64,000 bases of DNA from NCBI RefSeq assembly GCF_003660165.1, contig NZ_CP032829.1:2741001-2805000 (forward strand), given 5' to 3'. Positions 34,249 through 54,179 of this stretch are shown here, piece by piece. The stretch comes from Sphingomonas paeninsulae (lineage in GTDB: Bacteria > Pseudomonadota > Alphaproteobacteria > Sphingomonadales > Sphingomonadaceae). The notes below the pieces were generated by a model that did not search any database, was not told the DNA's origin, and saw only the letters and a list, made by a program, of their open reading frames with translations. The translations under genes were made by a program, and so were the position numbers. Positions within the stretch are counted from its first letter, which is position 1, and every line of letters starts with the position of its first letter.

Positions 34249-34261
34249 CCAGCGTCGGTAA
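34249..34261 (+). promoter_or_regulatory. Late-region 13-bp motif, copy 1
   Basis: CCAGCGTCGGTAA. It sits in the loop of an inverted repeat GCCCTGT (34238-34244) / ACAGGGC (34261-34267) and ends 35 bp before the portal gene. Function unknown; a phage-specific promoter element or processing site is possible. Confidence 0.7.
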
Positions 34262-34296
34262 CAGGGCCTTCCCGTCCGCGATAACCACGCGGGCCT

Positions 34297-36171
34297 ATGA
34301 GCATGGTTCGCAGCTTCTTCGACGGCCTGACCAACGTCCTGTCCGGCGCAGGAACCAGTGTCGATAAGCGGGTTCACGCTCGATACGGCCTGAACATCGT
34401 CGATCAGCATCAGGTTGAAGCGAGTTACCGAACATCTTGGCTCGCTCGCAAGATCGTCGACATGCCAGCCCACGACATGACTCGAGAGTGGCGCGACTGG
34501 AAAGCTGACGGTGAACTTATCGGCAAGATCGAAGCCGAAGAAAAGCGATTGTGCCTGCGTGAGCGGGTGACGCAGGCGATCGTTCTTGGTCGTCTCGGTG
34601 GTGGCGCGATCTACCTCGGGATCAAGGGGGATGACCCTTCTCAGCCTCTAGCTGTAGAGCATATTCGCCCCGGCCAACTGTCCTACATCGCGGTATTCTC
34701 GCGCTGGCAACTGACGATAGGGCAGGAGGTTTCTGACCCTGAAGATGCTCTGTTCGGTGGCCCCGACTATTTCCAGATTACAAGCATCGCGAACAAGGTC
34801 GGTGTGCGGATACATCCGAGCCGAATGGTTATCTTCAAAGGTGCGCACGTCATGCGTGGCATTGGCTCGCAATGGGAGGACGCGTTCTGGGGCGATCCTA
34901 TCTATCAGGCTGTTGGTGACGCGATCCGCAACGCTGATAGTGCGCAGAATAGTTTTGCCAGTCTGATTGATGAGGCTACTTACGACGTCATTGGCATCCC
35001 CGGCCTGATGGAGCGTCTATCACAACCGGGTGGAGACGCACAGCTATCCAAGCGCCTCGATGCAGCCCGACAGGGCAAATCTAATCATCGCGCGATCATC
35101 CTCGATAGTGGCGAGGGCGGCAAAGATGCCGAGACGTGGGTGACGCGTCAGGTCACTTGGGCCGGAATGCCCGAATTGATGGCCGCGTTCCTGCAAACGG
35201 TCGCTGGAGCTTCGGATATTCCCTACACGAGGTTGCTTGGCACCTCGGCAACCGGCATGTCTGCAACCGGCGAAGGCGACAAAAACGATTACCTGTCGAG
35301 CATTGCGACCAAGCAAGAAACCATGCTCCGCCCGAATATGGTTCGCATCGATGCCGTGATGCTGCGATCGGCCGGGATCAAGGATGAGCTATGGTTCGAT
35401 TGGTCACCGTTGTTCGAGATGGGCGAGAAGGAGCGCGCGGCCCTCGATAAGCTGAAGGCGGATACCGCGAAGGTGTGGGGTGATAGCGGGTTGGTGCCGA
35501 TCGATGCGCTAGCCAAGGGTGCGCAGAATCTTCTGACGGAAGATGGAACCTACCCCGGGCTGGATGAGGAACTGAAGAAGGCAGAGGCCATTGTTGCGCC
35601 AGACGCGGATGTCGCCCCCGTCGTGGCCAACCCCGATGACTTAGGCCTGACCAGTGAGGCTAAGCCAAAGCCGCTATTGAAAATCGTGGGCGATGCTGCG
35701 CCGCGTCCGCTCTACGTCAACCGTCCGCTGCTCAACGCCGCCGAATTTATCGCATGGGCCAAGGCTCAGGGATTCAAAACCACAACGCCCGCCGATGATC
35801 TGCACGTCACGATACTTTACAGCAAGACGCCTGTGGACTGGATGAAGATGGGCACCGATGGCTGGGGCAGCGATGCCAAAGGCAATTTGGACGTCGCCCC
35901 CGGTGGCGCTCGTATTGTTGAGCCATTGGGCGACAAAGGCGCGGTCGTGCTGTTATTCACATCGTCAAGCTTGTCGTGGCGTCATGAGGAAATGGTCCGC
36001 AACGGTGCATCGCATGACTTCGACGAATACCAGTCGCACGTCACGATTTCATATGATGCTAGCGATGTCGATCTGTCGAAGGTTGAGCCGTATCGTGGCG
36101 TACTGAAGTTCGGGCCGGAAGTGTTCACCGAGATTGTTGAAGATTGGAAGCCCACCGGCGGCGAGGCGTGA
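34297..36171 (+). CDS. Portal protein (DUF1073) fused to an Acb1-like 2H phosphoesterase domain
   Basis: 624 residues. Residues 1 to about 440 form the DUF1073 portal (SYRTSWLARKIVDMPAHDMTREWRDW, GGGAIYLGI, PYTRLLGTSATGMSATGEGD), the ring through which DNA enters. Residues about 470-620 form a separate domain with two H-x-T motifs, H503-V-T505 (DDLHVTILY) and H581-V-T583 (YQSHVTISY). These are the hallmark of 2H phosphoesterases and of Acb1, which destroys CBASS cyclic nucleotides. Start ATG 34297; the ribosome site is weak. Confidence 0.9.
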   Translation: MSMVRSFFDGLTNVLSGAGTSVDKRVHARYGLNIVDQHQVEASYRTSWLARKIVDMPAHDMTREWRDWKADGELIGKIEAEEKRLCLRERVTQAIVLGRLGGGAIYLGIKGDDPSQPLAVEHIRPGQLSYIAVFSRWQLTIGQEVSDPEDALFGGPDYFQITSIANKVGVRIHPSRMVIFKGAHVMRGIGSQWEDAFWGDPIYQAVGDAIRNADSAQNSFASLIDEATYDVIGIPGLMERLSQPGGDAQLSKRLDAARQGKSNHRAIILDSGEGGKDAETWVTRQVTWAGMPELMAAFLQTVAGASDIPYTRLLGTSATGMSATGEGDKNDYLSSIATKQETMLRPNMVRIDAVMLRSAGIKDELWFDWSPLFEMGEKERAALDKLKADTAKVWGDSGLVPIDALAKGAQNLLTEDGTYPGLDEELKKAEAIVAPDADVAPVVANPDDLGLTSEAKPKPLLKIVGDAAPRPLYVNRPLLNAAEFIAWAKAQGFKTTTPADDLHVTILYSKTPVDWMKMGTDGWGSDAKGNLDVAPGGARIVEPLGDKGAVVLLFTSSSLSWRHEEMVRNGASHDFDEYQSHVTISYDASDVDLSKVEPYRGVLKFGPEVFTEIVEDWKPTGGEA

Positions 36172-36965
36172 AATTTCTTCTCGCCGAATTCGCCCGCCGC
36201 AAAACCAACCGGCGTGGTGTCCTAAAACTCCGCAGCTTCGTTACCCCCAAGACGTTCGCCGATGAACTCGCCCGCATCAGCCTGCGCGTGGTCGCGGCAT
36301 GGGATGGCGAACTGGCGGCGATCGAGCGGACCTATTCGACCACGCTGGATGGCATGACGCGCGACACGGCGGCAGACCTTGGCGCGCAGATCGAAGATAT
36401 AGGACAGGCGGTGAACCGGCTGATCCTGACGTTGACGCCTTCGTTGCGTGCGTGGGCCTTGCGTGTCGAGAAATACAGCCGCGAGAAGTGGGCAGGCGCT
36501 GTCCTATCCGGGACCGGCGTTGACCTTGGCACGATCCTGCACAGCGGCGATGTGACCGAGACACTGGAAACCGTCGTGGCTCGTAACGTCGCACTGATCC
36601 GCGATGTATCGGCGCAGGCACAGGGCCGGATTTCCGATAGCGTGTTTCGCGGGTTGCAAAAGCGGTCGGCGGCGGTCGAAGTGGCTAAAGAGATACGCGA
36701 GGCCACGGGTATGGCGCGCGATCGGAGCATTCGGATTGCCGGGGATCAATCGAAGAAGCTGACTTCGAAGCTGGATCAGGAACGGCAGCAACAGGCGGGA
36801 CTAGAGAAATTCGAATGGGTGCATGGTGGCTCCCAAAATCCGCGACCGGAGCATGAAGAACTGGACGGGCAGATATTCAGCTATGCGGAGCCGCCTTCAA
36901 GTCTTCCTGGGGAAGAAATTAACTGTTCCTGCCGTGCCGGGCCAGTGTTGAGTCTGGATGATTAG
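36168..36965 (+). CDS. MuF-like head morphogenesis protein
   Basis: 265 residues. N-terminal helical region, then the C-terminal Mu gpF domain with the conserved P-R-P-E-H-E-E-L-D-G...PGEEINCSCRA ending. It is a minor head protein bound to the portal. GTG start overlaps the portal stop (GTGA). Confidence 0.88.
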   Translation: MKFLLAEFARRKTNRRGVLKLRSFVTPKTFADELARISLRVVAAWDGELAAIERTYSTTLDGMTRDTAADLGAQIEDIGQAVNRLILTLTPSLRAWALRVEKYSREKWAGAVLSGTGVDLGTILHSGDVTETLETVVARNVALIRDVSAQAQGRISDSVFRGLQKRSAAVEVAKEIREATGMARDRSIRIAGDQSKKLTSKLDQERQQQAGLEKFEWVHGGSQNPRPEHEELDGQIFSYAEPPSSLPGEEINCSCRAGPVLSLDD

Positions 36966-36980
36966 AAGGCTATAAAAGTC

Positions 36981-37043
36981 GAGCCGAACGAGGGGTCTAG
37001 ACCTCGCCCGGCTCTAACCAAAACGATCACGGAAGGATCGAAT
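36981..37043 (+). promoter_or_regulatory. Structured leader of the first HNH-type gene
   Basis: Hairpin: outer stem GAGCCG (36981-36986) / CGGCTC (37009-37014), inner stem CGAGG (36989-36993) / CCTCG (37002-37006), loop ggtctaga. Then 30 bp (37014-37043) identical to 41634-41663, with a second hairpin CGATC-acggaag-GATCG that holds the ribosome site GGAAGG in its loop and 3' arm. Confidence 0.7.
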
Positions 37044-37838
37044 ATGGCTGAATCTCTCGTAGCTGCCGTGCGGCGCACTCGCAAATCTTATCCCCGCATC
37101 CAACCCGGCGACGTTTTCAATAAGCTGACCGTAGTGTCCGGCGACACCCCCTACATTCAACCGTCGAGCGGGAAGCCTGTCGATCGGTGGATTGTTCGTT
37201 GCGAATGTGGGCGAACGCTTCAAAGAAACCCTGCCCAATTACGTTCCGGCCAATCGAAAGATTGTGGATGCGGGCGGAAATACAAAGCTCCGGCGATAGG
37301 CACTGTGTTTGGAAGTTTGACCGTTTGCGGAGAACCGCGCAGCATCAATAAGCAATGGATGGTCCCGTGCCTCTGCAAATGCGGCGAACGCAGGCTACCG
37401 TTTTCATTTTCACTGACTGACGGAAGTTCCACTTCATGCGGCAAGTGCCGCGCTCCCATGAGCGATGAAGCTAAAGACGCTATTGGTTCGGCAAACCGGA
37501 CGCATGGCAAATCAGCTACGTCCATATATCGCACTTGGCAGGCGATGAAAAACCGTTGCACCGACCCACGCAACCAAGCTTTCCCGATGTACGGCGGGCG
37601 CGGAATTGACGTTGATCCTCGATGGCTTGCCAGTTTCGAGGCGTTCTACGCTGACATGGGCGATAGGCCTGATGGAGGCTACAGCATCGACAGGATCGAC
37701 AATGACAAAGGGTATTATCCTGAGAATTGCCGATGGGCCGATGATTCAACCCAAAACAGAAATCGTCGCTCTTTCACTATAGTCAGGCGCGGCAAACAGA
37801 TTAACGCTCCCTCAGCCAGCGTCGGTAAACTCACTTAA
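37044..37838 (+). CDS. Putative homing endonuclease with zinc fingers (HNH-like, intruder in head operon)
   Basis: 264 residues. Two Cys-rich fingers (CECGRT...CGCGRK; CLCKCGER...CGKC), then the module SIYRTWQAMKNRCTDPRN...YGGRGIDVDPRW...YSIDRIDNDKGYYPENCRWAD. That last module is widespread in phage intruder genes related to HNH enzymes. It separates MuF from the head protease, which are normally adjacent. It shares its leader with the HNH gene at 41664. The last codons contain motif copy 2. Confidence 0.75.
   Translation: MAESLVAAVRRTRKSYPRIQPGDVFNKLTVVSGDTPYIQPSSGKPVDRWIVRCECGRTLQRNPAQLRSGQSKDCGCGRKYKAPAIGTVFGSLTVCGEPRSINKQWMVPCLCKCGERRLPFSFSLTDGSSTSCGKCRAPMSDEAKDAIGSANRTHGKSATSIYRTWQAMKNRCTDPRNQAFPMYGGRGIDVDPRWLASFEAFYADMGDRPDGGYSIDRIDNDKGYYPENCRWADDSTQNRNRRSFTIVRRGKQINAPSASVGKLT
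37816..37828 (+). promoter_or_regulatory. Late-region 13-bp motif, copy 2
   Basis: CCAGCGTCGGTAA inside the last codons of the HNH-like gene (A-S-V-G-K). It ends 33 bp before the protease/scaffold gene. Confidence 0.68.
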
Positions 37839-37861
37839 CAGCCACGAATAAACGGTCCAAC

Positions 37862-39022
37862 ATGTTCATGTCGGACCATCTTACGCTCGACGCGCCACGA
37901 CGCACCAAGGACGGCTACATGGCCGTTCGGGCTAAGGCTGCACGGACAGGCCATTATGCCTATTCGGGCCGCGATGTGGACCCCAGCAACATGCACGGTC
38001 TGCGCGACACGACGACTGTCAATGTTTTGCGCGATGCCGATCAGGTTTTCGCCGCGAAAGCTGCTCATAGCTTCATCGGCAAGCCGATCACCGACAACCA
38101 TCCTGCCGACAGTGTGACATCTGCCAATTGGAAGGATCACGCTCGCGGCACGATCATGGGCGCGAAGTGGGAAGAGGGTGGCTACCTCGCCTTCGACCTC
38201 ATGCTTACCGATGAGAGCGCCATCAAGGCGGTTGATTCCGGTAAGCGTGAGTTGTCGAACGGCTATTCCTGCGAGCTTGAATTTGGCGATTTCACAGCGG
38301 CGGACGGCACGAAATGCCTCGCCCGGCAGGCCAACATCGTCGGGAATCATATTGCCCTGGTCGATAAAGGCCGTGCCGGTCCCGAATGTCGCATCGTTGA
38401 TGCTGCCGCGTGTGACGCAATTTCACCAACGACCCTGCAATCCATTTTTACCGACAGCGGAGAACGCACTATGAAGAAACTGACCATCGACGGCCTGCTG
38501 GTCGATCTTGCCGACGCCGAGGCGGTTACCGCTGTTGTTGCGAAATTGCAGGGTGCCGCCGCTGCTGCGATTACCGCCAAAGATACCGCAGAAGCCGCGC
38601 TGGCGACCACCACGACGCTATCGGCAACCAAGGATGCTGAGATTGCCACGCTTAAGCAGCAGGTCTCTGACGCAAAACTGACGCCGCAACAGTTGCGGGA
38701 TGCTGGCAAGGCTTACGCCCTAACGCTGGATACCGCCAAGAAGCTGGCTCCATCGCTCAGCCTCGCGGACACGATGGATGAAGCCGCGATCAAAAAGGCG
38801 GTCGTTTCGGCTAAGTTAGGCGACGTCGCCAAGGATTGGACCGACGCTCAGGTCGATGTCTCGTTTGCCACGATGGCAACTGCGACGCCGGTCACAGACA
38901 GCGTCCGCACCGTGATGACGAACGGAATCGTCCAGATCGGCGATGCATCTGCCCGTGAGACATCATCGCTCGCCAAAGCCAACGATCATAACGCCTGGCG
39001 CAACGCCAGCGCGGCAGCTTAA
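37862..39022 (+). CDS. DUF2213 prohead protease with C-terminal scaffold
   Basis: 386 residues. Residues 1 to about 190 match DUF2213 (SGRDVDPSNMHGLRDTTTVNVLR...FIGKPITDNHPADSVTSANW...ELSNGYSCELE...NIVGNHIALVDKGRAG), an S78-like prohead maturation protease. The rest is an Ala/Lys-rich helical scaffold. An internal start at 38471 probably makes the scaffold alone. Confidence 0.87.
   Translation: MFMSDHLTLDAPRRTKDGYMAVRAKAARTGHYAYSGRDVDPSNMHGLRDTTTVNVLRDADQVFAAKAAHSFIGKPITDNHPADSVTSANWKDHARGTIMGAKWEEGGYLAFDLMLTDESAIKAVDSGKRELSNGYSCELEFGDFTAADGTKCLARQANIVGNHIALVDKGRAGPECRIVDAAACDAISPTTLQSIFTDSGERTMKKLTIDGLLVDLADAEAVTAVVAKLQGAAAAAITAKDTAEAALATTTTLSATKDAEIATLKQQVSDAKLTPQQLRDAGKAYALTLDTAKKLAPSLSLADTMDEAAIKKAVVSAKLGDVAKDWTDAQVDVSFATMATATPVTDSVRTVMTNGIVQIGDASARETSSLAKANDHNAWRNASAAA
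38471..39022 (+). CDS. Nested scaffold protein (in-frame internal start)
   Basis: Same frame as the protease. ATG 38471 has GGAG (38459-38462) eight bases before it and begins MKKLTIDGLLVDLADAEAVTAVVAKLQ. The 183-residue product is coiled-coil rich, like lambda Nu3 nested in gene C. Prediction from the ribosome site and domain border. Confidence 0.6.
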   Translation: MKKLTIDGLLVDLADAEAVTAVVAKLQGAAAAAITAKDTAEAALATTTTLSATKDAEIATLKQQVSDAKLTPQQLRDAGKAYALTLDTAKKLAPSLSLADTMDEAAIKKAVVSAKLGDVAKDWTDAQVDVSFATMATATPVTDSVRTVMTNGIVQIGDASARETSSLAKANDHNAWRNASAAA

Positions 39023-39037
39023 ACAGGAGGGCGCGCA

Positions 39038-39496
39038 ATGGCGTATCAGAACGGTTACACGCAATTCCAGCCTGACGGTTTCCCCGGCATGTTGGGGAAC
39101 ATGGAAAACTGGAACGGTCTTACCCGAACCGCGACAGCAACGATCGCGTTCGGTGCTCCGGCTCAGCGTTCCGGCGACAAGCAGTGCGCTCCACTCGTTA
39201 CGGGCGGCGAGTTCATCGGCATCGCGATCGGGCATCACGTCATCACCAGCACGAACGGCGACAGCTACGGGCAGTACGACAACGTGCCGCTCGCTGATGA
39301 AGCCGGGAAGATTGGTGGCCTCGCTGATGCTGCAATCTCAGTTGGCGCTGCTCTCAACTGGAACACAGCCAGCGGTCGATACACCACTGCCTCTGTTTCC
39401 GGCACCGTGATTGCCGTTCCGGGTGCCGAGGCTGACACCGCCGCCGCTGCTGCGGGTTCGTTCTTCTGGGTGCGGCTGCGCCGTACCCCATCTTAA
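39038..39496 (+). CDS. Head decoration/cement protein
   Basis: 152 residues, beta-rich with many Gly/Ala/Thr (FGAPAQRSGDKQCAPLVTGGEFIGIAIGHH). It lies between scaffold and capsid, the usual place for the structural cement protein (DUF2190-like). Confidence 0.75.
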   Translation: MAYQNGYTQFQPDGFPGMLGNMENWNGLTRTATATIAFGAPAQRSGDKQCAPLVTGGEFIGIAIGHHVITSTNGDSYGQYDNVPLADEAGKIGGLADAAISVGAALNWNTASGRYTTASVSGTVIAVPGAEADTAAAAAGSFFWVRLRRTPS

Positions 39497-39509
39497 GGAG
39501 GTTTGACTG

Positions 39510-40475
39510 ATGTACCAACTCAACGACGCACAGCAGGCCACCTTCGGGTTCGTCTATAACCAGTCCCTGCTGGTCAATTCGACCGTTTACGAAACTAAGT
39601 TCCCCGACCTCGACTTTGGGCGACTGGTCTATGTCGATAGCTCGGCACCTGAATTCGCGCCCGGTATTGCGACCTTCATCTCCAGCACGCTCGGCAAGGC
39701 TGATTGGTTCTCTGGCGCCGCCAAAGACATCAAGAAGGCCGATGTGACGCGCGATCGAGTTGAAACCCGGTTCCACATGGCCGCGATCGGCTATGGCTAT
39801 AATATCGAGGAAGCCGGGCAGGCTCAGTTGATGGGCATGAACCTGGACACAGGAAAAGCCGAAGCCGCACGCCGCGCATACATGGAGTTCATGTGGAACG
39901 TCACTCTCACCGGCGATACCACGAAGGGCTTGGCTGGCCTTATCAGTCAGACGGCGGGCGTCACCATCGGCACAGCACCTGCAGACGGTACGGGTTCTGT
40001 AACCACTTGGTTCGCCACAGATGGTACGATGACAAAGACGGCCACGCAGATCCTGCGCGACTTCAACAATGTCATCCTCGGCATCTTTACCGGGTCGCTT
40101 ACCGTTGAAATGGCTGACACTGTTTTGCTTCCGTATTCGACTGAGGCGTTCCTTGGCGCAACACCGATGTCGGCTACGAACAGCGAGACGGTACTTTCGT
40201 TCATTGAGCGCAACAACGTTTATACCCGTCGCACCGGTCAACCCCTCACAATCCGGGGTGAGCTTGGTTTGGACGCTGCGGGTGCTGGCGCAACGAAGCG
40301 CATGGTTGCCTATGCCAACCGTCAGGACGTGGTGAAACTGCACCTGCCAATGCCGCATCGCTTCTTGCCCGTGGCAACGGCTGACAACGTGCATTTCGAC
40401 ATTCCCGGCATTTTCCGTACCGGTGGCGTCGAAGTCATCCGGCCCGGCGCTTTTCGTTATCTGGACGGGATCTAA
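39510..40475 (+). CDS. Major capsid protein (DUF2184 family)
   Basis: 321 residues. The start MYQLNDAQQATFGFVYNQSLLVNSTVYETKFPDLDFGRLV and the ...RDFNNVILGIFTGSLTVEMADTVLLPYSTEAFLGA...HLPMPHRFLPVA pattern fit the DUF2184 capsid group. AAGGAGGT lies seven bases before the ATG, the strongest ribosome site in the prophage. Confidence 0.9.
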   Translation: MYQLNDAQQATFGFVYNQSLLVNSTVYETKFPDLDFGRLVYVDSSAPEFAPGIATFISSTLGKADWFSGAAKDIKKADVTRDRVETRFHMAAIGYGYNIEEAGQAQLMGMNLDTGKAEAARRAYMEFMWNVTLTGDTTKGLAGLISQTAGVTIGTAPADGTGSVTTWFATDGTMTKTATQILRDFNNVILGIFTGSLTVEMADTVLLPYSTEAFLGATPMSATNSETVLSFIERNNVYTRRTGQPLTIRGELGLDAAGAGATKRMVAYANRQDVVKLHLPMPHRFLPVATADNVHFDIPGIFRTGGVEVIRPGAFRYLDGI

Positions 40476-40478
40476 GCC

Positions 40479-40697
40479 ATGGCCGAAGCAAAGAATGTCA
40501 AGCATGTCGTCACCAACGTGTCAGGTGGCCCACGGGTAATCAACGCGATTCCCGGCGTCCTGTTGCAGAATGGGGAGTCCACCGATGGCGCTGTTGAAAT
40601 GACCGAGGCTGAGTTCGCGGTCGCCAAGTCCACCGAGTGGTTCAAGTTCGGCGATAAGTCAGATGCGAGGCCCAAGCCTGCCGACAAAGCAGACTAA
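40479..40697 (+). CDS. Small head protein
   Basis: 72 residues (VKHVVTNVSGGPRVINAIPGVLLQNGES...), ending in a Lys/Asp-rich tail. It looks like the small domain found after capsid genes. Three bases separate it from the capsid gene. Confidence 0.72.
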   Translation: MAEAKNVKHVVTNVSGGPRVINAIPGVLLQNGESTDGAVEMTEAEFAVAKSTEWFKFGDKSDARPKPADKAD

Positions 40698-40725
40698 AGC
40701 TTCAAATAACTTCCTGACGGGAGTG

Positions 40726-40756
40726 AAGGGGCTGGCGTCCAACGCTGGCCCCTTTT
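40726..40756 (+). terminator. Rho-independent terminator after the capsid module
   Basis: GGGGC-tg-GCGT-cca-ACGC-tg-GCCCC followed by TTTT. Motif copy 3 follows seven bases later. Confidence 0.75.
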
Positions 40757-40763
40757 GCATTTA

Positions 40764-40776
40764 CCAGCGTCGGTAA
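40764..40776 (+). promoter_or_regulatory. Late-region 13-bp motif, copy 3
   Basis: CCAGCGTCGGTAA just after a terminator (CCCCTTTTGCATTTA precedes it) and 34 bp before the next gene. The layout suggests restart of transcription. Confidence 0.7.
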
Positions 40777-40810
40777 CGAACCCAGATGTGGCAAAATAGA
40801 ACGTCGGGCC

Positions 40811-41559: not shown

Positions 41560-41601
41560 CGGTCTTGCAAAAATTACCGGAATTTGCGATACATAAGCGG
41601 A

Positions 41602-41663
41602 CTGAACGGGTGCTTGTAACACCGCGCTCAGCCCTAACCAAAACGATCACGGAAGGATCGAAT
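41602..41663 (+). promoter_or_regulatory. Structured leader of the second HNH gene
   Basis: Outer stem CTGA (41602-41605) / TCAG (41628-41631), inner stem GGTG (41609-41612) / CACC (41620-41623), loop cttgtaa. The sequence differs from the leader at 36981 but pairs in the same layout. Then the identical 30 bp (41634-41663) with the ribosome site in a hairpin. Confidence 0.68.
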
Positions 41664-42245
41664 GTGGCTAATCGCCGACTATATCCCTGCAAGACGTGTG
41701 GCAAGTTGACCATTTTGCGAATGGGTATGTGCAATCTTCATTACAAGCGCTTGCGCAAACATGGCGACCCGCTCGCTGGCCCGACTTTCCGTGGGGATTT
41801 GCTTAAATGGATCGACAAGCACGTTGATTATAAAGGCGATGAATGCCTGTCTTGGCCCTTCAGTAAGAAGGGTGAGGGCCGAGGCGGCATAACGGTCGAT
41901 GGCAAAGAAATGTGGGTCGCGCGCTATATGTGCGAGCGAGCGCATGGTCCCGCGCCGACGACAGATCACGAGTCTGCGCACTCTTGTGGAAACGGGCATC
42001 TTGGGTGCACTAACCCTCACCACCTGCGTTGGGCGACCCGGACTGAAAATCAGGCGGATCGTTTTAAGCACGGCACTGATAGTCGTGGGGAAAAGTGTGG
42101 CTCGGCTAAGCTAAATCGAGCGCAAGTGCTCGATATCAGAGCTTCCCAAGGGGCGCTTACAAACCGGCAACTAGCCGACAGGCATCAAATTTCAATTGAG
42201 ACTATTCGCGACATTCATAACTGCCGGAGTTGGTCATGGCTGTAA
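41664..42245 (+). CDS. HNH homing-type endonuclease (intruder in connector operon)
   Basis: 193 residues from GTG 41664. N-terminal finger (YPCKTCGK...GMCNLHYKRLRKHGDP), central HNH_3 domain (TDHESAHSCGNGHLGCTNPHHLRWATRTENQADR), and a C-terminal HTH (LTNRQLADRHQISIETIRDIHN) that should add DNA specificity. It lies between the neck gene and the HK97 gp10-like gene, overlapping the latter by 10 bp. Confidence 0.88.
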   Translation: MANRRLYPCKTCGKLTILRMGMCNLHYKRLRKHGDPLAGPTFRGDLLKWIDKHVDYKGDECLSWPFSKKGEGRGGITVDGKEMWVARYMCERAHGPAPTTDHESAHSCGNGHLGCTNPHHLRWATRTENQADRFKHGTDSRGEKCGSAKLNRAQVLDIRASQGALTNRQLADRHQISIETIRDIHNCRSWSWL

Positions 42246-42640: not shown

Positions 42641-42642
42641 TC

Positions 42643-43240: not shown

Positions 43241-43249
43241 GCCTACGGG

Positions 43250-43785: not shown

Positions 43786-43796
43786 ATTGCCAGCCC

Positions 43797-44899: not shown

Positions 44900-44905
44900 G
44901 CTGGC

Positions 44906-44934: not shown

Positions 44935-44991
44935 GCGAAAAGCGCTAGCGTTCTGCGATAGTTCCGGCGCGCGCCTTCGTCACGTCCGACA

Positions 44992-45018
44992 GGGCGGATC
45001 GAAAGGGTCGCCCCTTTT
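44992..45018 (+). terminator. Terminator-like hairpin before the tail tube gene
   Basis: GGGCG (44992-44996) / CGCCC (45009-45013) with a 12-base loop and TTTT. The same CCCCTTTT-CATTTA context as the terminator at 40726, followed by motif copy 4. Confidence 0.55.
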
Positions 45019-45025
45019 CATTTAA

Positions 45026-45038
45026 CCAGCGTCGGTAA
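45026..45038 (+). promoter_or_regulatory. Late-region 13-bp motif, copy 4
   Basis: CCAGCGTCGGTAA after a terminator-like hairpin and just downstream of the moron block. It ends 59 bp before the tail tube gene. Confidence 0.7.
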
Positions 45039-45097
45039 ACCCTCCGTCGTCACAGATTTAATGTTCCGCGAAATCATTCACGTTCGCGGAGATAACC

Positions 45098-45553: not shown

Positions 45554-45565
45554 GCGAGGTGGCCC

Positions 45566-46208: not shown

Positions 46209-48556
46209 TGGCCGTCACTTCAGACAGTGTCGTCGTTACGCTTGAGGCGAAGATCGACGGCTATAATCGAGACATCAACCAAGCGGCAGACAACACATCT
46301 CGTAAACTCGATCAGATTACGGGTTCCACGAAAAAGATGGGCGCGGCTGGGACTGATGCATTCGCATTACTTCGCGGTGCTGCTGTTGGATTTGCCGCCT
46401 CCGTAGGAGTCGACGCTCTCGCTCGGGTTATTAAGTCCGGCCTTGATTACGCAGCGGGCTTAAAAAACATAGCGCAAGCCGCAGGGGTTAGCTCGCAGTT
46501 TCTTCAGGAATTCAGGTTTGCAGCGACTGCCAGTGGCGCAACCATAGAACAAGCGGATGCGGGACTAGCAAAATTCAGCAAATCCTTGGGAGATGCATTC
46601 AACGGCAAGTCGAAAGAGGCTGTCGCCAATGTAACGGCGGCACTCGTCGGGACCGGCGTGTCACTGCAACAACTCGCCAAAATGACCGATAGCGCACGGT
46701 TTGAAGCGATCTCTGATGGGCTGTCGAAGATCAAAGACCCTGCCCAAGCCGGAACACGCGCTCTGGCATTGTTTGGAGAGGCTAACCGCGCGCTGATCCC
46801 CACATTGACAGCGGGCGGTGCCGCGTTTCGCAAGGCTGCATTGGACGCTCAATCTTTCGGGCTGATCCTCTCAGATAGCCAGATCGCACACGCTGATGAG
46901 ACTGCGAGTAAAATCCAGCGCTTAACCCAAGCGTTGCAGGTCAAGATCGCGGGCACGGTGGCAGATAATGCCAATGCTATCGGCACCTTGGCGAATGAGT
47001 TGACTAACCTCGCGGTCTGGGCAGTGAAGGCGGGTCAGCAGTTCATTGGCTTTGCAAACATCGTGCGAAACCAAAGCTTTTTGACGGCTCTCGGAACCTA
47101 CAAGAGCGCTGACCTACTTGCTGCCGCCACTCCGAAGGGCAACGCAGTGTCGGCAATCCGCGGCGCGGCGGACGCACAACGCCGACTTGCATCTGCCGAG
47201 AGACAAGTCGGCTACGCTCCGGATTCCGCATCCAATCAATCCGAGTTGGTTGCAGCCAAGAGAGCGGCTGTGGACGCCGTTCAAAATGCCAAAGATGCTG
47301 TCACCGCGGCGAAAGCGTCGCTCAACCCTAATGCGGGAAATGCGACCGCAGGAGGCTCCGCCACAGTAACTCCGCCTAAAGGCCCTAAAGGTCCAAAAGG
47401 AAAAGATCCCGCGGACATCGAGCGCGAATTCAACCGCGCCCTTGCTCGCGCGCAGGAAGACTACCTCCGCGAGCAGGAGGACATGACTGCGGACATCGCG
47501 ATCCGCGCCGGGATCGAGAGCGACCTAGCTGAACGCCAACGCCTCCAGTCCGTCGAGGATGTGAGCCTCAACAAGGATTATTCACAGGCACGCAAAGACA
47601 CGCTGATCGCCGCCATCGACAAGGCGGCATCAGCCCGGCAGGATTCGATCAACCAGCAGAAGATCGAAGCGCTTGCTGATGAGTCCGCCAAGATCGCCGT
47701 TGGCTCCCTAAGCAGCCAAGAGGATATTCTAAAATTGCAGGGCGGGCTTGCAACTACGCAGGCGAAACGCCGCGATATTGAACTGTCGATCATAGCGCTC
47801 AAGTATGAAGAGGAGCGCATTCAGAACCAGCGCGTGATCGATGACACGCTCGCCAGCAAAGAGGCTAAAGCAGATGCGCGTCGTCGCAACGAGACGCTGG
47901 CGCAACGTCAGAACTTAGATATTCAGACGGCCGAGCAGAACACGATGACGCCGGGCGAAAGCTATTTGAAGGATCTCCGGAAAGACGCTCAGGGCCTTAA
48001 CGAGGATTTCCAGCAAGTTGCTGTCGACGGCCTTAAGTCTCTCAACGACGGGATAGCCGACGCCATTCTTAGCGGCAAATCGCTAGGTGAAGTGTTCAAT
48101 TCGGTCGTTAACCAGATCGTCTCTGGCTTGCTGAAGATCGCTATTCAACAAGCGATAATTAAGCCGCTCGGGGAATCGCTGTTCAGCGGCGGCGGCGGCG
48201 GGGGAGGCCTGCTTTCCGGCATCGGCAATTTTGCGAGCAAACTCGTCGGTCGCGCATCCGGTGGTGACGTGCAGGGTGGTCAGACCTACCGAGTCAATGA
48301 AACGGGCATTGAGGGTTTCCAGCCAGCCGGGTCGGGAAAGATTATCCCGCTCGGTCGGATGCCGACCGCAGTCTCAGGCGGCGGTACATCGATCGTTCAA
48401 TCCTTTACTCTGGACGCGCGTGGCGGTGTCGTAACGCAAGACCTTCTTGATTACGTCAACGCACAGGCGGGGCAGGCGGCAATTGCGGGGGCGCGTGGGG
48501 GCGCTCAGATCGCATCGCGAAACTATGCCAAAGCAGCCGCCCGGAGGCTTGCATGA
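46208..48556 (+). CDS. Tail tape measure protein
   Basis: 782 residues. An N-terminal coiled region (VTLEAKIDGYNRDINQAADNTSRKLDQITG), a hydrophobic part (LLRGAAVGFAASVGVDALARVI), long helices, a Gly-rich stretch (FSGGGGGGGLLSGIGNF) and a C-terminal GFQPAGSGKIIPLGRMP domain. It sets tail length, about 115-120 nm by the usual rule of thumb. Confidence 0.93.
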   Translation: MAVTSDSVVVTLEAKIDGYNRDINQAADNTSRKLDQITGSTKKMGAAGTDAFALLRGAAVGFAASVGVDALARVIKSGLDYAAGLKNIAQAAGVSSQFLQEFRFAATASGATIEQADAGLAKFSKSLGDAFNGKSKEAVANVTAALVGTGVSLQQLAKMTDSARFEAISDGLSKIKDPAQAGTRALALFGEANRALIPTLTAGGAAFRKAALDAQSFGLILSDSQIAHADETASKIQRLTQALQVKIAGTVADNANAIGTLANELTNLAVWAVKAGQQFIGFANIVRNQSFLTALGTYKSADLLAAATPKGNAVSAIRGAADAQRRLASAERQVGYAPDSASNQSELVAAKRAAVDAVQNAKDAVTAAKASLNPNAGNATAGGSATVTPPKGPKGPKGKDPADIEREFNRALARAQEDYLREQEDMTADIAIRAGIESDLAERQRLQSVEDVSLNKDYSQARKDTLIAAIDKAASARQDSINQQKIEALADESAKIAVGSLSSQEDILKLQGGLATTQAKRRDIELSIIALKYEEERIQNQRVIDDTLASKEAKADARRRNETLAQRQNLDIQTAEQNTMTPGESYLKDLRKDAQGLNEDFQQVAVDGLKSLNDGIADAILSGKSLGEVFNSVVNQIVSGLLKIAIQQAIIKPLGESLFSGGGGGGGLLSGIGNFASKLVGRASGGDVQGGQTYRVNETGIEGFQPAGSGKIIPLGRMPTAVSGGGTSIVQSFTLDARGGVVTQDLLDYVNAQAGQAAIAGARGGAQIASRNYAKAAARRLA

Positions 48557-49145
48557 GTATCATGTTGCCAGACCCTCGGTATCTGGAGGTTTCATTCTCT
48601 CCGTTGGATTGGGGGCAACTCTTACGCCGTCACTGGGCGGCCCGGTCCAGCGCATCAATCGCCTCGGAAATCGCACAGCCATAAGTTACACGCTGCGTCC
48701 GCTATACAGTCCAACCGAGGGCCGTATCTTCGTGGCGCGGCTTATGCGTGGTCGTCAGGTCGGCGTTATCGTGGTGGTGCCCCAATCAGGGATCATCGTC
48801 GGAACGCCTGGAAGTCCGCTGGTGAACGGCGCTGTTGGTGGCGGCATCGCTTTGCCCATCAAAGGGCTGACGGCGGGCTATGTAATGAAGGAGGGTCAAC
48901 CTCTGTCGATCATCCATAACTCACGTCGCTTCCTGCACTGGTTTGCTGGTGATTATACGGCTGATGGCTCAGGTAGCGGGGCCACCAACATATATCCGCC
49001 GTTGCGCACGGCGTTGACGAACAACGATGTCATCGAGATTGCCAAGCCGTACATCGAAGGCTCGCTTTCCGCTGACAGTGATCGCTGGAGCAAGCAGGCC
49101 GCGGCCCGAAACCCGATCAGTTTCACTGTGACGGAGGACGCATAG
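48553..49145 (+). pseudogene. Distal tail protein, frameshifted
   Basis: Starts at ATG 48553 (MSIMLPDPRYLEVSFSPLDWG; overlaps the tape measure stop). Adding one G to the G5 run at 48611-48615 continues ATLTPSLGGPVQRINRLGNRTAISYTLRPLYSPTEGRIFVARLMRG... to 49145, 197 residues. It corresponds to the gene usually found between tape measure and DUF2163 proteins. The uncorrected frame stops early. Confidence 0.75.
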
Positions 49146-49798
49146 TGGCCACTCCAGCGATGGTCACAGCCCTTCAGGCGAACCCGACCACATTATTCGG
49201 TGCGCTCCAGATCGACCTGAAATCGGGGCAGACCGTCCGCGTCCTCGACGGCTGCGCCAGCCTTACCTTCAACGGCGGCACGTTCACTGGACTTGACCCA
49301 TTGTTCGGTACGATTGCGGCCATCGACACCATTGAGGACGGGTTCGGCGACGAAGCCCCAGCGTTGTCGTTCAATTTCATCCCGGCCAGCGGTGCATCGA
49401 TCGCAGCGCTGGCGGTACCTGCGAACCAAGGCTCACGCGTCCGTGTCTGGTTGGGCGCTCTCGACACATCCTACAACGTCGTCGCTGACCCAATCCTGCT
49501 GTTCGACGGTGAACTTGACCAGATCACGCCAACAGTCGGCAAGGACAAGCGCGAACTCGACGTAGATGCCGTCTCTGGAATGGAGCGGTTCTTCGACAAT
49601 CAGGAGGGTGTCCGCCTTTCGCCGACCTTTCATAAATCATTGTGGCCGGGAGAGACGGGTTTGGACAATATCACCGGGCTTGAAAACAAGGTTTTCTGGG
49701 GCGTGATGGGTGAAAGCGTTTCGCCTGTGACCATAGGTTATGTCGGCGGTCCTTCTGGAGGCAGCGGTCGCGGCAATTCTGGCGCGGTCCAATGGTGA
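49145..49798 (+). CDS. DUF2163-like tail tip protein
   Basis: 217 residues. VTALQANPTTLFGALQIDLKSGQTVRVLDGCASLTFNGGTFTGLDPLFGTIAAIDTIEDG...LFDGELDQITPTVGKDKRELDVDAVSGMERF is the pattern of phage baseplate hub-like proteins next to a peptidase gene. GTG start (TAGTG). Confidence 0.82.
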   Translation: MATPAMVTALQANPTTLFGALQIDLKSGQTVRVLDGCASLTFNGGTFTGLDPLFGTIAAIDTIEDGFGDEAPALSFNFIPASGASIAALAVPANQGSRVRVWLGALDTSYNVVADPILLFDGELDQITPTVGKDKRELDVDAVSGMERFFDNQEGVRLSPTFHKSLWPGETGLDNITGLENKVFWGVMGESVSPVTIGYVGGPSGGSGRGNSGAVQW

Positions 49799-50220
49799 TG
49801 CACGTCCTAGAACGCCGAAAAATCGCCACCGAGGCGACGATGGCGCGGTTCGTGGGCAAAGAATTTCGTTGGGGTTCCGCCGATTGCGCCAAGCTCGCTG
49901 CCTTCCACCTTCGCCAGTTGGGCGTGAAGGTCGGTATTGCGAAGGCGGGCAAGTGGACAACCGCGCTGGGAGCCAAGGCGGCTTTGAAGCGAATGGGCGT
50001 GAAGTCGCTTTCGGAATTGGCTGACAAGCATCTGGCGGAGATCGCACCCGCTGCCGCACTGCCGGGCGATATCATGATCATGCCCGGCGATAATGATTTT
50101 GAAGGGTTAGCGATCGTGCTGGGGAACGGGGCCGTGCTTGGCTGGCACGAAGAGGCGGAAGGGTGCGCGGTGTTGCGCATTACCTATGAGCAAACGCGGG
50201 CTTGGCGGGCGATTGTATGA
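49798..50220 (+). CDS. Tail tip peptidase-like protein (NlpC/P60-type, DUF6950-like)
   Basis: 140 residues. FRWGSADCAKLAAFHLRQLG contains the Cys of an NlpC/P60-like fold; PGDIMIMPGD and VLGWHEEAEG provide further conserved positions. It probably cuts peptidoglycan or assembles the tail tip. ATG 49792 is an alternative start. Confidence 0.8.
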   Translation: MHVLERRKIATEATMARFVGKEFRWGSADCAKLAAFHLRQLGVKVGIAKAGKWTTALGAKAALKRMGVKSLSELADKHLAEIAPAAALPGDIMIMPGDNDFEGLAIVLGNGAVLGWHEEAEGCAVLRITYEQTRAWRAIV

Positions 50221-53200
50221 GCAAAATCCTCAAGATTGCAGCCGTGGTTGTCGGTGTCGTGGCTATTACAGTGGCGACCGCTGGCATCGGAACGGCACCC
50301 GCAATCGCCGCATCGGGGACCGGCTTTGGGGCCGTTGCGGCATCGGCTGCGGTTGGAGCCAGCGCGTTCGGGTTGTCGGTCGGAACGTTGACAGCCGTTG
50401 CCGCGGGCCTCTCCCTCGCCAGTTCTGCGCTCGCCAAAAAGCCCCAATCAGGAAGCGCAGTCGGATCGCCCACCAACTGGAAAGCCGATGTTGGCGCACC
50501 GTTGCCCTACTGGATCGGGCGCACGCTCAACGCGGGCAGTCTCGTGCATCGTATCGGCTACCCCGGCCCGGACGCTGGTGTTCCCAACCAGCTTGAAACC
50601 TTCGTCACGGTCTATTCTGGTGCAGGGCCGATAGCTGGTTTCGACAGCTACCTGATGGACAAGGTTGCGACCACGTTCACCGGTACGAACGGAGCCGTGG
50701 TTGGCACGCTTGCCGGGTATGCTTGGTTGACGGCAAAACTTGGCGCGCAACCGGAAGCCGCCGCGCACGTCGCACCTTATGCAGTACCGCCTGGTTGGGG
50801 TCCGTCTGCAAAGTTGTCGGGTCTGGCATCCACGATGCTGACGATATGCTTCGACAACAAGGGCAAGGTCTATCCTACGGGCGAACCGAAGCTGGCAATC
50901 GTCGGGCGGGGTGTCAGCGCCTACGATCCTCGCAAGGATAGTACCTATCCGGGCGGCTCAGGGACGCAACGGTCGGCAACAGAGTCCACATGGGCCTACA
51001 GCGACAATCCGTGGCTCCACGCGCTTACTTGGGCCATCGGGCGGCGTTCGAACGGTATCCGCACAATAGGCGTGGGAATGCCGATTGCGAGCATCGACGT
51101 TGACGCGTTCGTGCAGGCTGCAAACGTGGCTGACGCGAATGGCTGGAAGATCGGCGGCGTTGTCGGTTCGACCGATGACAAGTGGAACGTCCTGAAGCAA
51201 ATGTGTCAGGCAGGCGGTGGCGAGCCTGTCCGGCAAGCTGCGATGCTGTCCTGCTTTGTCAACGCGCCGAAAGTCAGCCTTGCCACTATCACCGCTGACG
51301 ATCTAGCCGATGGCGATATTTCATTTCCGGCGATGCAGCCGCGCCGTGCCCGGATTAACAGCATCGTACCGACGTATCGTTCTGAAAGTCACGATTGGGA
51401 GGTCGTGGCGGGCGATGTGGTGAAGGGAGCCACGTACATCGTCGAAGATGGCGAGACACGCACGCGACAGGTCGATTACCCGCTAGTGCAGTGCTTTGCA
51501 GGTCAGCAACCAACGCAGGCCGCGCAACTGGCTGCATATGATATCGTCAACGCCCGCGAATATGGCCCAATCCCCATCCCTCTCAAACCGGCATGGATCA
51601 GGTTCAAGAATGGCGACTGCCTGACGCTGAACATCCCTGACGCAAATTTGGTCAATCAGACGGCCATCATATTGAAGCGCGGACTTGATCCTTCGAACGG
51701 TTCGGTGTCGTTGACATTTCGCTCGGAGACTGCGGCCAAGCACGCGTTTGCTTTGGGTAAAACCACGACAGCGCCGCCAACGCCATCGATCAGTGCGCCG
51801 CCTGTTAATCCCTACTGGATGGACCCGAATGCCACGCGCGATATTACCCTCGTTGACGTATCGTACTCCGGCACCATCAACATCAACGGCAATAGCCTGA
51901 GTGGCAATGGCTCGGGTGGGGACTGGACAACCGGCGGGGCTGACAAGAATTATTATACGAGCAGTGAAGTCGCAGTTCGTATGGCCAGCCTGCAATCCCG
52001 TTTGATGATAGGGCTAACTTCTCGGGCGTCGTTTTCCGCGCCGATTTACACAAAAATGGAATATGCGATCTATTCGCAAACGCAGGGAAGCGGTTCAGCT
52101 TATCTGATTTTTGAATCAGGGAAGAACGTATTCACTGTTCCTACGATTGTTTCAGCGCCCGACGACTATCTGCAAGTCATTAACGACGGGGCGGTCGTTC
52201 GATATTATATTAATGGCACGCTGGTTTATAAATCGCTGGTTGCGCCGGGCGGCATAAAATATCGAGCTGTCATTACAGTTGGGTCAGGTTCGACAGCTAC
52301 GGCGATCGTCACCGATATAAAAGCAGGACCGACGCTTTCCGCCATTGACACGTTGGCAGGAAGCGGTGCGCAAAACCTTATCTATAACGGCGGCGCGGAA
52401 CTCGGAACGACGGCCGGTTGGGTTACGAATTATCTAGGCGGCGCGGGACCGGTTGGATTTTACGCCGACCCCACCTACGCACAATCGGGAAAATACTCGT
52501 TTGTCTTGTCCAAGTCGGCGACTAGCGACCAAAATGGCGCAACCTGCAAATCAGTCGCCGTCATGCCCGGCGAAATCTACAATATAAAAGTCTTTCTCTA
52601 TGGCATTGGCTCGTCAAGTACGGGCTTGTATCTCCGCCCCGGGGAAAGTGCTGTCGAAGGTTATCCGGCAAGCCAAATTAGCGGTTCACCTTCGCCCGAC
52701 TTTGTCGCAAATGGCCCAGTCGCCAACGGCTTAACGGTCTACGATCTTGTCTATACCGTCCCTGCTGGCGTCTATTTCTTTTCGCTGAATGTCATTGCTT
52801 ACACCGGAACGCCAAGCATTGCCTTTGAAGCGGCGATGCTCAAACAGATTGGCGCGCGCAATCTGCTAACTGACGGGGGCGTTGACCTCGCCACCGTTGT
52901 GCCGGGCACCTTCGCATGGAAGACCGGGTCATCAGGCACCCAGACAACAACATCGGGCGCATCGGCGGCAGATACCGGTGTTATCAATGGTACAGGTACG
53001 GGCACTGTGACGGCAGGCACCCGCGTAACCTTGACTGGAAACGCGGCGTTTTCTGCCGCGACCGGGTATCCGGGGCAAACAGCTTCAGTTGCCTTGCAGC
53101 TATACTACAACGTGAATGGTGCTGGATGGGTGTTTACCGGCGTGAGTGTCGCCAACAATGGCGGCTTCCAAAACATAAATCTACAGTCGGCTAGTTGGAT

Positions 53201-53318
53201 CGTGCCTGTGACCGGAAAAATGCAATTTGCCTATAATGTACATAGCATCGGAAGCGGCGGGATGCCGGTAACGGTCACGTCACACAGTATAAATCTTGAA
53301 GTGATCAACTTCAAATGA
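50217..53318 (+). CDS. Tail tip attachment protein J-like (host specificity)
   Basis: 1033 residues. It begins with hydrophobic Ala/Gly helices (ILKIAAVVVGVVAITVATAGIGTAPAIAASGTG), followed by the phage tail-protein domain (WKADVGAPLPYWIGRTLNAGSLVHRIGYPGPDAGVPNQLETFVTVYSGAGPIAGF...) and RbsD-like/beta domains. The C-terminal half, about 600-1033, contains carbohydrate-binding-type beta sandwiches (NLIYNGGAELGTTAGWVTNYLGG...). The C terminus probably contacts the receptor. Confidence 0.88.
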   Translation: MSKILKIAAVVVGVVAITVATAGIGTAPAIAASGTGFGAVAASAAVGASAFGLSVGTLTAVAAGLSLASSALAKKPQSGSAVGSPTNWKADVGAPLPYWIGRTLNAGSLVHRIGYPGPDAGVPNQLETFVTVYSGAGPIAGFDSYLMDKVATTFTGTNGAVVGTLAGYAWLTAKLGAQPEAAAHVAPYAVPPGWGPSAKLSGLASTMLTICFDNKGKVYPTGEPKLAIVGRGVSAYDPRKDSTYPGGSGTQRSATESTWAYSDNPWLHALTWAIGRRSNGIRTIGVGMPIASIDVDAFVQAANVADANGWKIGGVVGSTDDKWNVLKQMCQAGGGEPVRQAAMLSCFVNAPKVSLATITADDLADGDISFPAMQPRRARINSIVPTYRSESHDWEVVAGDVVKGATYIVEDGETRTRQVDYPLVQCFAGQQPTQAAQLAAYDIVNAREYGPIPIPLKPAWIRFKNGDCLTLNIPDANLVNQTAIILKRGLDPSNGSVSLTFRSETAAKHAFALGKTTTAPPTPSISAPPVNPYWMDPNATRDITLVDVSYSGTININGNSLSGNGSGGDWTTGGADKNYYTSSEVAVRMASLQSRLMIGLTSRASFSAPIYTKMEYAIYSQTQGSGSAYLIFESGKNVFTVPTIVSAPDDYLQVINDGAVVRYYINGTLVYKSLVAPGGIKYRAVITVGSGSTATAIVTDIKAGPTLSAIDTLAGSGAQNLIYNGGAELGTTAGWVTNYLGGAGPVGFYADPTYAQSGKYSFVLSKSATSDQNGATCKSVAVMPGEIYNIKVFLYGIGSSSTGLYLRPGESAVEGYPASQISGSPSPDFVANGPVANGLTVYDLVYTVPAGVYFFSLNVIAYTGTPSIAFEAAMLKQIGARNLLTDGGVDLATVVPGTFAWKTGSSGTQTTTSGASAADTGVINGTGTGTVTAGTRVTLTGNAAFSAATGYPGQTASVALQLYYNVNGAGWVFTGVSVANNGGFQNINLQSASWIVPVTGKMQFAYNVHSIGSGGMPVTVTSHSINLEVINFK

Positions 53319-53881
53319 CGGCTTTCAAACTGCACAACGACGATTGCTCCATCGTAGAATACGGGGTCGAGGTTGGGGATGTCTCATCACTTCCCGCCGC
53401 GCCTGACGGGTTCCGGTGGACTGAGGTGCCGACGCCTGCTTTAGACTACACGGTCGAGCTACTGGACGGGAAGTACACTGCGGTCCCCTACGTGTTCTCA
53501 CCGGTTATCGTTCTGAGCAGCACCAAGGCGGCGATGAGAAACGCGCTCTCCACGCTCCGCGACGTGATGGAATGGGCCGGATGCGCAACACCTGTTGGCC
53601 GTTCCGACACCACTCCCGACAGTCAGCGCAAGGTCAACGGTGCAGTGACTATGGCCCTTATCGCCAGCACTGCCGGTGCGCCGTTCTCGATCGACTGGAC
53701 GATGGCTGACAACTCGTCGGCCACGCTGGACGCACAGGGGATGATTGCATTGGGCGTCGCGGTCGGACGCTATGTTTCGGCCTGCCATGACCGGGGCGCG
53801 GTCATCAAGGCGGCGATCGACGCGGCGGCAACCATCGAGGCACTTGAGGCAATCGACATTGCGGCAGACTGGCCAACGTGA
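53315..53881 (+). CDS. DUF4376-containing tail protein
   Basis: 188 residues. N-terminal part (FKLHNDDCSIVEYGVEVGDVSSLPAAPDGFRWTEVPT) and the DUF4376 C-terminal helices (RKVNGAVTMALIASTAGAPFSIDWTMADNSSATLDAQGMIALGVAVGRYVSACHDRG) are visible. DUF4376 occurs in fibre and fibre-assembly proteins. ATGA overlaps with J. Confidence 0.82.
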   Translation: MTAFKLHNDDCSIVEYGVEVGDVSSLPAAPDGFRWTEVPTPALDYTVELLDGKYTAVPYVFSPVIVLSSTKAAMRNALSTLRDVMEWAGCATPVGRSDTTPDSQRKVNGAVTMALIASTAGAPFSIDWTMADNSSATLDAQGMIALGVAVGRYVSACHDRGAVIKAAIDAAATIEALEAIDIAADWPT

Positions 53882-54120
53882 TCCAGCGCCTGAAGCTCTG
53901 GGCGTTGTGTGTCCTGATCGCTCTCGACCAGCTGGCGCACTGCCTGCTTGGCGGCCCTAAATATATCCTGTTCGGCGGACCGACCCCGGACCCAGATGAA
54001 ACCATTTCCTCAATCGTCGGTCGCCAAGCCATCGTCGGCAAGCGGTGGGCGCTGATCTGCGAAGTGTTCATCGACGCACTGTTCGGCGCTGGTCACTGCC
54101 GCAGCAAGATCGGCACCTAA
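53878..54120 (+). CDS. Small phage protein before lysis genes
   Basis: 80 residues from a GTG (LKLWALCVLIALDQLAHCLLGGPKYILFGGPTPDPDETISSIVGRQAIVGKRWALICEVFIDALFG). One or two hydrophobic segments. The pattern is common in phage lysis regions, with no known function. Confidence 0.7.
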   Translation: MIQRLKLWALCVLIALDQLAHCLLGGPKYILFGGPTPDPDETISSIVGRQAIVGKRWALICEVFIDALFGAGHCRSKIGT

Positions 54121-54133
54121 CCAGCGTCGGTAA
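54121..54133 (+). promoter_or_regulatory. Late-region 13-bp motif, copy 5
   Basis: CCAGCGTCGGTAA in the loop of CGGCA (54111-54115) / TGCCG (54137-54141). It ends 46 bp before the first start of the lysis cassette. Confidence 0.7.
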
Positions 54134-54179
54134 ATATGCCGACGTAAACTGAATAATCACATCGTGAAGGAGTAGTCGT

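Follow-up and report, generated by a model that had tools for sequence, protein, structure and literature searches.

A word of 13 nucleotides (nt), CCAGCGTCGGTAA, is present in five exact copies in a stretch of 64,000 nt from Sphingomonas paeninsulae (NZ_CP032829.1, positions 2,741,001 to 2,805,000; hereafter the window), all of them on the + strand and within the late region of a prophage. Each copy is probably the upstream half of a late promoter, bound by a predicted helix-turn-helix (HTH) protein encoded at 32103-32348 that recruits polymerase and activates transcription; the switch is most likely thrown by this small, apparently undescribed viral DNA-binding protein. This reading is carried by computed results, namely the word itself, -10 and +1 signals at a fixed distance from it, its synteny, the absence of Shine-Dalgarno (SD) sequences, its co-occurrence with the protein family, and the largely correct word class obtained when starting from the protein.

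The repeated word and the signals behind it

An exact search recovered the five copies that the original prediction had noticed at 34249, 37816, 40764, 45026 and 54121, and the whole genome (4.0 Mb) holds five forward and no reverse occurrences, with none of a reversed control pattern. The claim that so many copies are not expected by chance was borne out by 200 windows simulated with a Markov-3 model, where the commonest 13-mer was present twice (178 runs) or three times (22 runs) and never more often. Overlapping words aside, CCAGCGTCGGTAA is the sole 13-mer of the window with at least three copies spread over more than 500 nt. The late region encodes terminase, a portal protein with a C-terminal Acb1-like domain, Mu F-like, DUF2213, major capsid, DUF4054, tail tube and GH19 proteins, and the copies stand, in order, before the genes for portal, DUF2213, DUF4054 and tail tube and before presumed lysis genes. 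The distances to the next ATG (35, 33, 34, 59 and 46 nt) had been given correctly, as had the position of copy 2 in the last codons of an intruder gene, which encodes an HNH endonuclease (37044-37838). The features are as follows:

32103..32348, + strand: proposed late activator, 81 amino acids (aa), HTH-like; at the close of the early region, directly ahead of the terminase genes
32307..32319, + strand: candidate for a sixth site, GAAGCGTCGGTAG, weaker than the five copies, within the 3' end of the activator open reading frame (ORF); ATG of ORF 32353 at +33
34249..34261, + strand: copy 1, putative activator/-35-region word; -10-like TAACCA at 34282-34287; portal ATG 34297 at +35
37816..37828, + strand: copy 2, in the last codons of the HNH gene; -10-like TAAACG at 37849-37854; DUF2213 ATG 37862 at +33, predicted leaderless
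40725..40755, + strand: terminator-like hairpin, directly 5' of copy 3
40764..40776, + strand: copy 3; -10-like TAGAAC at 40797-40802; DUF4054 gene ATG 40811 at +34
45002..45018, + strand: short terminator-like hairpin, directly 5' of copy 4
45026..45038, + strand: copy 4; -10-like TAATGT at 45059-45064; predicted +1 at about 45071-45072; tail-tube ATG 45098 at +59, with SD
54121..54133, + strand: copy 5; -10-like TAATCA at 54154-54159; predicted +1 at about 54166-54167; before the presumed lysis block (54209 gene, GH19 protein 54517)

A -10-like TA stands 20 nt after every one of these five copies (TAACCA, TAAACG, TAGAAC, TAATGT and TAATCA). The three copies at 33-35 nt from an ATG have no SD, and the two further off have one. 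The ATG after copy 5 opens an ORF of 10 codons only, which runs into the beginning of the 54209/54212 gene. At GAAGCGTCGGTAG the TA is one base out of register, and this site may have arisen by chance; two copies with two mismatches (34355 and 54029) were rejected as extra promoters because their TA is not at the expected place.

The predicted hairpins right before copies 3 and 4 are present, though that of copy 4 is short and a consensus terminator scan lists neither. Copy 1 lies within the loop of the inverted repeat GCCCTGT...ACAGGGC, as had been claimed; copy 5, also assigned to a loop, forms one arm of a stem. Since copies 2, 3 and 4 follow the inserted HNH gene or a hairpin, the late genes downstream of them would stay expressed, so that the proposed restart of transcription after each interruption fits these three copies and not copies 1 and 5.

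Portal searches, both alignment searches covering the best 80 of more matches, yielded 168 loci from viral and genome contigs, among them the prophage of the window itself (L031). Words of at least 11 nt common to the portal and DUF2213 upstream regions were found in 11 of 157 phages, against 4 of 600 between-phage control pairs. In L033, the place that copies 1-4 have before the portal, DUF2213, DUF4054 and tail-tube genes is taken by another word, ATCGGCCGTAATC. Further recurring classes are (T)GACGGCGGTAA, CCGTCCGTAG and CCGCCGTAATC, with GACGACGGTAA in L218 and GCGGCGGGAA in the isolated phage Ssp-JY40 (L222), and most classes fit the core CSNCSGTAR. The search of related phages suggested in the original prediction therefore succeeded as to the element, which is found at the same junctions, but not as to its sequence. 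Exact CCAGCGTCGGTAA is present in 25 of 298 family genomes including its own, in no other more than three times, and a reversed control pattern is at least as common; the 13-mer itself thus looks private to the window prophage. Two of the 11 phages, L053 and L058 (Caulobacter), have a word of another type, CGTCGAGATGACGCCC, in both upstream regions without the regulator family described below, which may be a late-promoter system of another kind. The phage L222 (PP438430.1), whose record gives Synechococcus as the host, has a related portal, a regulator-like protein and a late word; its true host may be a companion alphaproteobacterium.

In 29 phages, the cognate word, chosen by eye for each phage and with one variable base allowed in some, occurs 108 times forward and twice in reverse, a count that omits the duplicates L031 (the window prophage), L034, L211, L212 and L215 as well as L219. 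At 76 of the 108 sites a start codon, ATG in all cases, follows after 31-35 nt (33 nt at 37 sites, 32 nt at 24), and only 5 of these 76 have an SD. Another 21 sites have their start at least 43 nt away, with an SD in 19. There, T20 (16/21), A21 (19/21), T25 (15/21), A32 (16/21) and A33 (15/21) are enriched (p <=1e-8; p-values are only guides throughout, because neither the sites of one phage nor those of close relatives are independent of each other), that is, a sigma-70-type -10 stands at a fixed distance from the predicted +1. Because both signals persist where the start is distant, -10 and +1 belong to the word and not to the ATG. The signal is mostly missing at the 11 copies without a start codon (TA in 2, one being window copy 5, which was grouped here since its ATG opens a short ORF). 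No TTGACA-like -35 was found at the sites, where the word fills that position, and a sigma-70 scan gave no promoter at copies 1-4 (copy 5 lay outside the scan).

As the +1 is tied to the word, the ATG coincides with the predicted +1 where it lies 32-33 nt away, and copies 1 and 3, with ATGs at 35 and 34 nt, may keep a leader of 1-2 bases. When starts refined by script were compared, the DUF2213 gene had an SD in 1 of 25 activator-positive phages versus 115 of 133 activator-negative ones (p 5e-16), the portal gene in 1/26 versus 57/140, and the major capsid gene in 10/16 versus 99/107, with no change for decoration (15/15 versus 51/51) and tail tube (16/17 versus 9/9). For DUF2213 and portal, a word in front of the gene thus goes with the lack of an SD. 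The fixed distance from word to +1 and the lack of SD together predict leaderless mRNAs with +1 at the A of AUG. In the alphaproteobacterium S. meliloti, the 171 leaderless start sites described in PMC3616915 all begin with AUG, and likewise all 76 close starts here are ATG; phage transcripts are said to be often leaderless (PMC5312081).

A small protein family found with the word

The AlphaFold2 model of the 32103-32348 protein (mean pLDDT 85) has helices at residues 20-36, 40-49 and 53-80, which suggest a predicted HTH-like arrangement. Family members gave scattered weak hits only when compared with Pfam and PHROGs (10 members), NCBIfam (20) and PDB sequences (profile). Homologues are present in 26 of the 168 portal loci. 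The core pattern, drawn from earlier positives without using the protein, is found at one or more of the portal, DUF2213 and tail-tube starts in all 26 (at two or more in 20), versus 7 of 142 protein-negative loci; among loci with at least 4.5 kb upstream, the counts are 23/23 and 2/110. Five pattern-positive loci lacking the protein are short on that side, L083, L104 and L153 having almost no sequence upstream of the portal and L144 and L155 only about 1.5-2 kb. When all 525 ORFs of five motif-positive phages were scanned, the activator family, with its five members, was present in 23/23 motif-positive versus 0/110 other relatives (score 1.00); the next-best ORF reached 0.68, and no other ORF had the distribution of this family. 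Three loci of the motif-positive set, L049, L081 and L193, were recognised only once the protein was known, and all of them pass the core pattern; L132, recognised likewise, lies outside the 4.5-kb subset. One family that adjoins the regulator in some phages scored 15/23 versus 0/110.

Alignment A3 placed the activator in 12 of 249 family genomes including its own (the weakest hit, E 3e-4, is unlike a member) and in 1 of 337 class genomes, again its own. Among the family genomes, L216 and L218 are new phages found via the protein, and both show the layout, while L221 is just the short end of a contig. Twelve activator-positive loci have a genome title, which names Sphingomonadales genera or the order itself in ten cases, a Gammaproteobacteria assembly in one and an Alphaproteobacteria assembly in one. 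The contig of the L075 prophage (= L211) matches Blastomonas natatoria DSM 3183, of the same family as the window host. L219, where no portal homologue was found, has three copies of a word of its own of 17 nt, ACACATTGGCGCTAGTC. They end 31, 33 and 32 nt upstream of the ATGs of the genes for terS, scaffold and virion protein, in a set of late genes that differs from the window type. The cognate late word also stands 34 nt (L241:9492) and 33 nt (L242:5821) before the regulator's own ATG, which points to possible autoregulation. In L243, the word at position 7235 precedes by 33 nt another small ORF similar to the regulator family, which may be a paralogue.

Another ORF, the sigma-70 region-4-like 28406-28747 (weak Pfam/PHROG hits), was rejected as the regulator because a single-sequence search over the 168 portal loci met it in L031 alone, the window's own prophage. 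It overlaps a small Myb-like ORF (28359-28529), and among the relatives no homologue of these HTH-like ORFs (28359-28747) was found outside that prophage.

The words also vary with the protein. TNWR helices pair with GACGGCGGTAA, [AS]HK helices with C[CG]GCCGTAA, GARN/GART helices with CCGTCCGTAG, the IRKW..TGA branch with CGGCGG[TG]AA, and the window helix GSRPSVITRW with CGTCGGTAA. In a Mantel test over 26 phages, word distance was correlated with HTH distance (r 0.33, 1/5000 permutations), also given the portal (r 0.26, 1/5000). Searches with the protein only led to 28 TNWR-type viral loci, 21 of which carry CGGCGGTAA in at least two copies and none CGTCCGTAG twice. Among the other TNWR-type loci, three have one CGGCGGTAA at a start codon, L226 has CGGAGGTAA twice, and L236 and L248 are short contigs. 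Among 30 GAR-type loci, 18 carry at least two copies of CGTCCGTAG, and five have neither CGTCCGTAG nor CGGCGGTAA twice, four of these being contigs under 7.1 kb. Eight of the 58 protein-fetched loci repeat phages already used (L224=L095, L227=L075, L252=L194, L260=L173, L261=L098, L269=L175, L273=L102 and L276=L054) and others repeat each other (L245=L244, L271=L270); with repeated phages removed, 18 of 25 TNWR-type and 12 of 23 GAR-type loci carry the expected word. The A5 query contained the L216 protein, and its likes L249 and L250 are among the hits.

A number of observations weigh against a direct link between protein and word, or against the proposed promoter. Word distance tracks portal distance better than it tracks the HTH (Mantel r 0.55), so that much of the covariation is shared ancestry, and recognition-helix and N-terminal distances could not be separated in this analysis. 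The protein-fetched loci are relatives of the query phages, and joint inheritance would therefore also give the expected words. L097 (helix KVHAKTIRRW) carries GACGGCGGTAA, CGCCGTAATC goes with an unlike helix in L151, and two further exceptions, L262 and L265 (LLLKW), carry CGGCGGTAA. At least two copies of CGGCGGTAA are present in 7 of the 30 GAR-type loci (in L279 not at start codons), and the TNWR-type locus L239 has no word. Two of the 110 activator-negative loci have a single core match each, and the regulator-like loci L213, L214, L217 and L220, without portal homologue, show no such repeat. The -10 is weak, with TA in 31 of the 76 close-start sites and A alone in 54; the three sites of L219 have no TA, and A is at index 21 in 2 of 3. 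Finally, Foldseek found no fold match for the 32103-32348 protein in the PDB (best E 3.9).

How the element may work

From these results we infer that the protein binds the word and activates transcription, that part of the late mRNAs are leaderless, and also the time at which the protein is made. The 13-mer would span about -45 to -33, in place of the -35 element, with a TAnnnT-type -10 starting 20 nt after the word and transcription starting about 32-33 nt after it. A phage HTH protein of about 80 aa would bind the word, replace the -35 contact and bring host RNA polymerase to the weak -10. Made from the end of the early region, this activator would turn on five dispersed promoters, and with them the head, tail and lysis genes, at the same time. 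Transcription from the head-gene promoters would start on the ATG or within about 2 nt of it and give leaderless or nearly leaderless mRNA, and the tail-tube and lysis promoters would give a leader with SD. Word and protein would diverge together between phages, and in L241 and L242 the activator would perhaps also switch on its own gene. A phage-specific late promoter or activator site, as first proposed, is thus strongly supported by the fixed -10/+1 distance, the conserved junctions and the co-occurring HTH-like protein family.

The rival that survives best, although we consider it rather unlikely, holds that these are late promoters read by another phage factor or by a host alternative sigma factor, the small protein acting otherwise near terminase. 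The link between word and protein consists of co-occurrence and covariation, part of which shared ancestry explains, and the gene for the protein neighbours terS; HTH domains are common in TerS proteins, and this one has such a domain too. Yet no other scanned ORF has the same distribution, the protein-only searches mostly met the expected word class, and L219, with the protein and no portal homologue, has its own word at the same distance from ATG. A host factor is unlikely since the words differ between phages of one host family.

An improbable reading is that the copies are operators at which the small protein represses these promoters. Phage repressors act at dispersed stoperators; a word at many promoters would suit a repressor equally well, and its position overlaps the -35 region. 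This is countered by the missing TTGACA-like -35, by the empty sigma-70 scan at the copies it covered, by the weak -10, as expected of an activator-dependent promoter, and by the location of the gene at the early/late border; the own-gene site in L241 and L242 was also counted here, the latter fitting either sign. Very improbable is an element acting in RNA, a signal for processing or translation placed about 33 nt ahead of the ATG. The processing element offered as an alternative in the original prediction is of this kind. The nearly constant ATG distance at 76 of 108 sites would suit it, but T/A/T at 20/21/25 and A at 32-33 are kept at the 21 sites with ATG at 43 nt or more, and folding of the window copies gave no RNA fold common to the five. 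Chance or a recent duplication of a module boundary, for which only the partly common flanks of copies 3 and 4 speak (81% over 36 nt), we regard as refuted by the simulations, with more than three copies in 0 of 200, and by the relatives, where differing sequences form the element at these same junctions.

As to known systems, lambda Q is an antiterminator at one promoter and Mu C binds a dyad; the proposed activator resembles both as a late regulator whose gene closes the early region, and general library searches gave no sequence relation to either, no search having been aimed at them. RinA/ArpU/Ltr are small regulators of packaging and structural genes in Gram-positive phages, and the proposed activator resembles them in this role, but differs in its several dispersed promoters, phage-specific words and predicted leaderless starts. 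No late regulator was hit by 10 members in Pfam and PHROGs or by 20 in NCBIfam, where the presence of RinA/ArpU/Ltr models was not confirmed.

In its manner of working the system would be like P2 Ogr and T4 MotA, while being a member of neither. P2 has four late promoters with TGT-N12-ACA, read by zinc-binding Ogr (PMC3931495). Common to Ogr/Delta and the activator proposed here are one small phage activator for several dispersed late operons and a site before homologous operons in a relative. In contrast, the P2 site described there is a dyad and the word here is asymmetric, overlaps the -35 region and is found 108 times forward versus twice in reverse; Ogr has a Cys4 zinc motif (CX2CX22CX4C), and the window protein one cysteine and a predicted HTH. 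Also unlike P2, many starts here look leaderless. T4 middle promoters keep the -10 and have the -35 replaced by a MotA box, with AsiA (PMC6755090), similarly a phage word upstream of the -10 that is read by a phage protein. The MotA box is centred near -30, the word here at about -39, and MotA, as presented there, has two domains, needs AsiA and serves middle genes, versus late genes here. No MotA/AsiA homology was found in Pfam, PHROGs, NCBIfam or PDB sequences, or by Foldseek against the PDB.

In the literature searched, whose coverage takes in few subscription papers, no description of this late-control system was found. We lean towards a large undescribed system, mainly of sphingomonad phages, in which a mini-activator of about 80 aa replaces the -35 and sets the start on the AUG of virion genes, giving leaderless late mRNAs, with activator and word co-diversifying into private late-promoter codes. 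The module has apparently moved between unrelated phages (L219) and would sometimes activate itself (L241, L242). It would provide a testable late switch for a phage group, mostly Sphingomonadales, without described late regulator in the databases and literature searched, and its numerous naturally occurring word-protein pairs offer material for working out how a very small HTH-like protein selects its DNA. If portal and head genes are indeed expressed without a leader, nature would have set up an experiment on leaderless translation in growing phages, since the same gene (DUF2213) has an SD in most sister phages without the system. For annotation, the element helps to fix start codons and marks late operons.

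Neighbouring genes and repeats

The portal protein (34297-36171) has at residues 471-618 a C-terminal Acb1 (anti-CBASS) domain (Pfam PF23474, E 6e-40). An alignment of ten portals of the group shows no variation at H503, T505 and H581 and almost none at T583, so that the portal-Acb1 fusion looks conserved; a literature search found nothing on such a fusion. A direct repeat of 49 nt (90%) at 37001-37049 and 41621-41669 lies over the starts of two different HNH endonuclease genes and holds the hairpin CGATC-acggaag-GATCG, which would cover the ribosome binding site. To the left of the prophage genes, a tandem repeat of 9 nt with unit CGAGCAGTC occupies window positions 23139-23385 (its commonest 13-mer has 16 copies), and at their right end lies a tRNA-Arg (CCT) gene (60050-60126), a likely attachment site.

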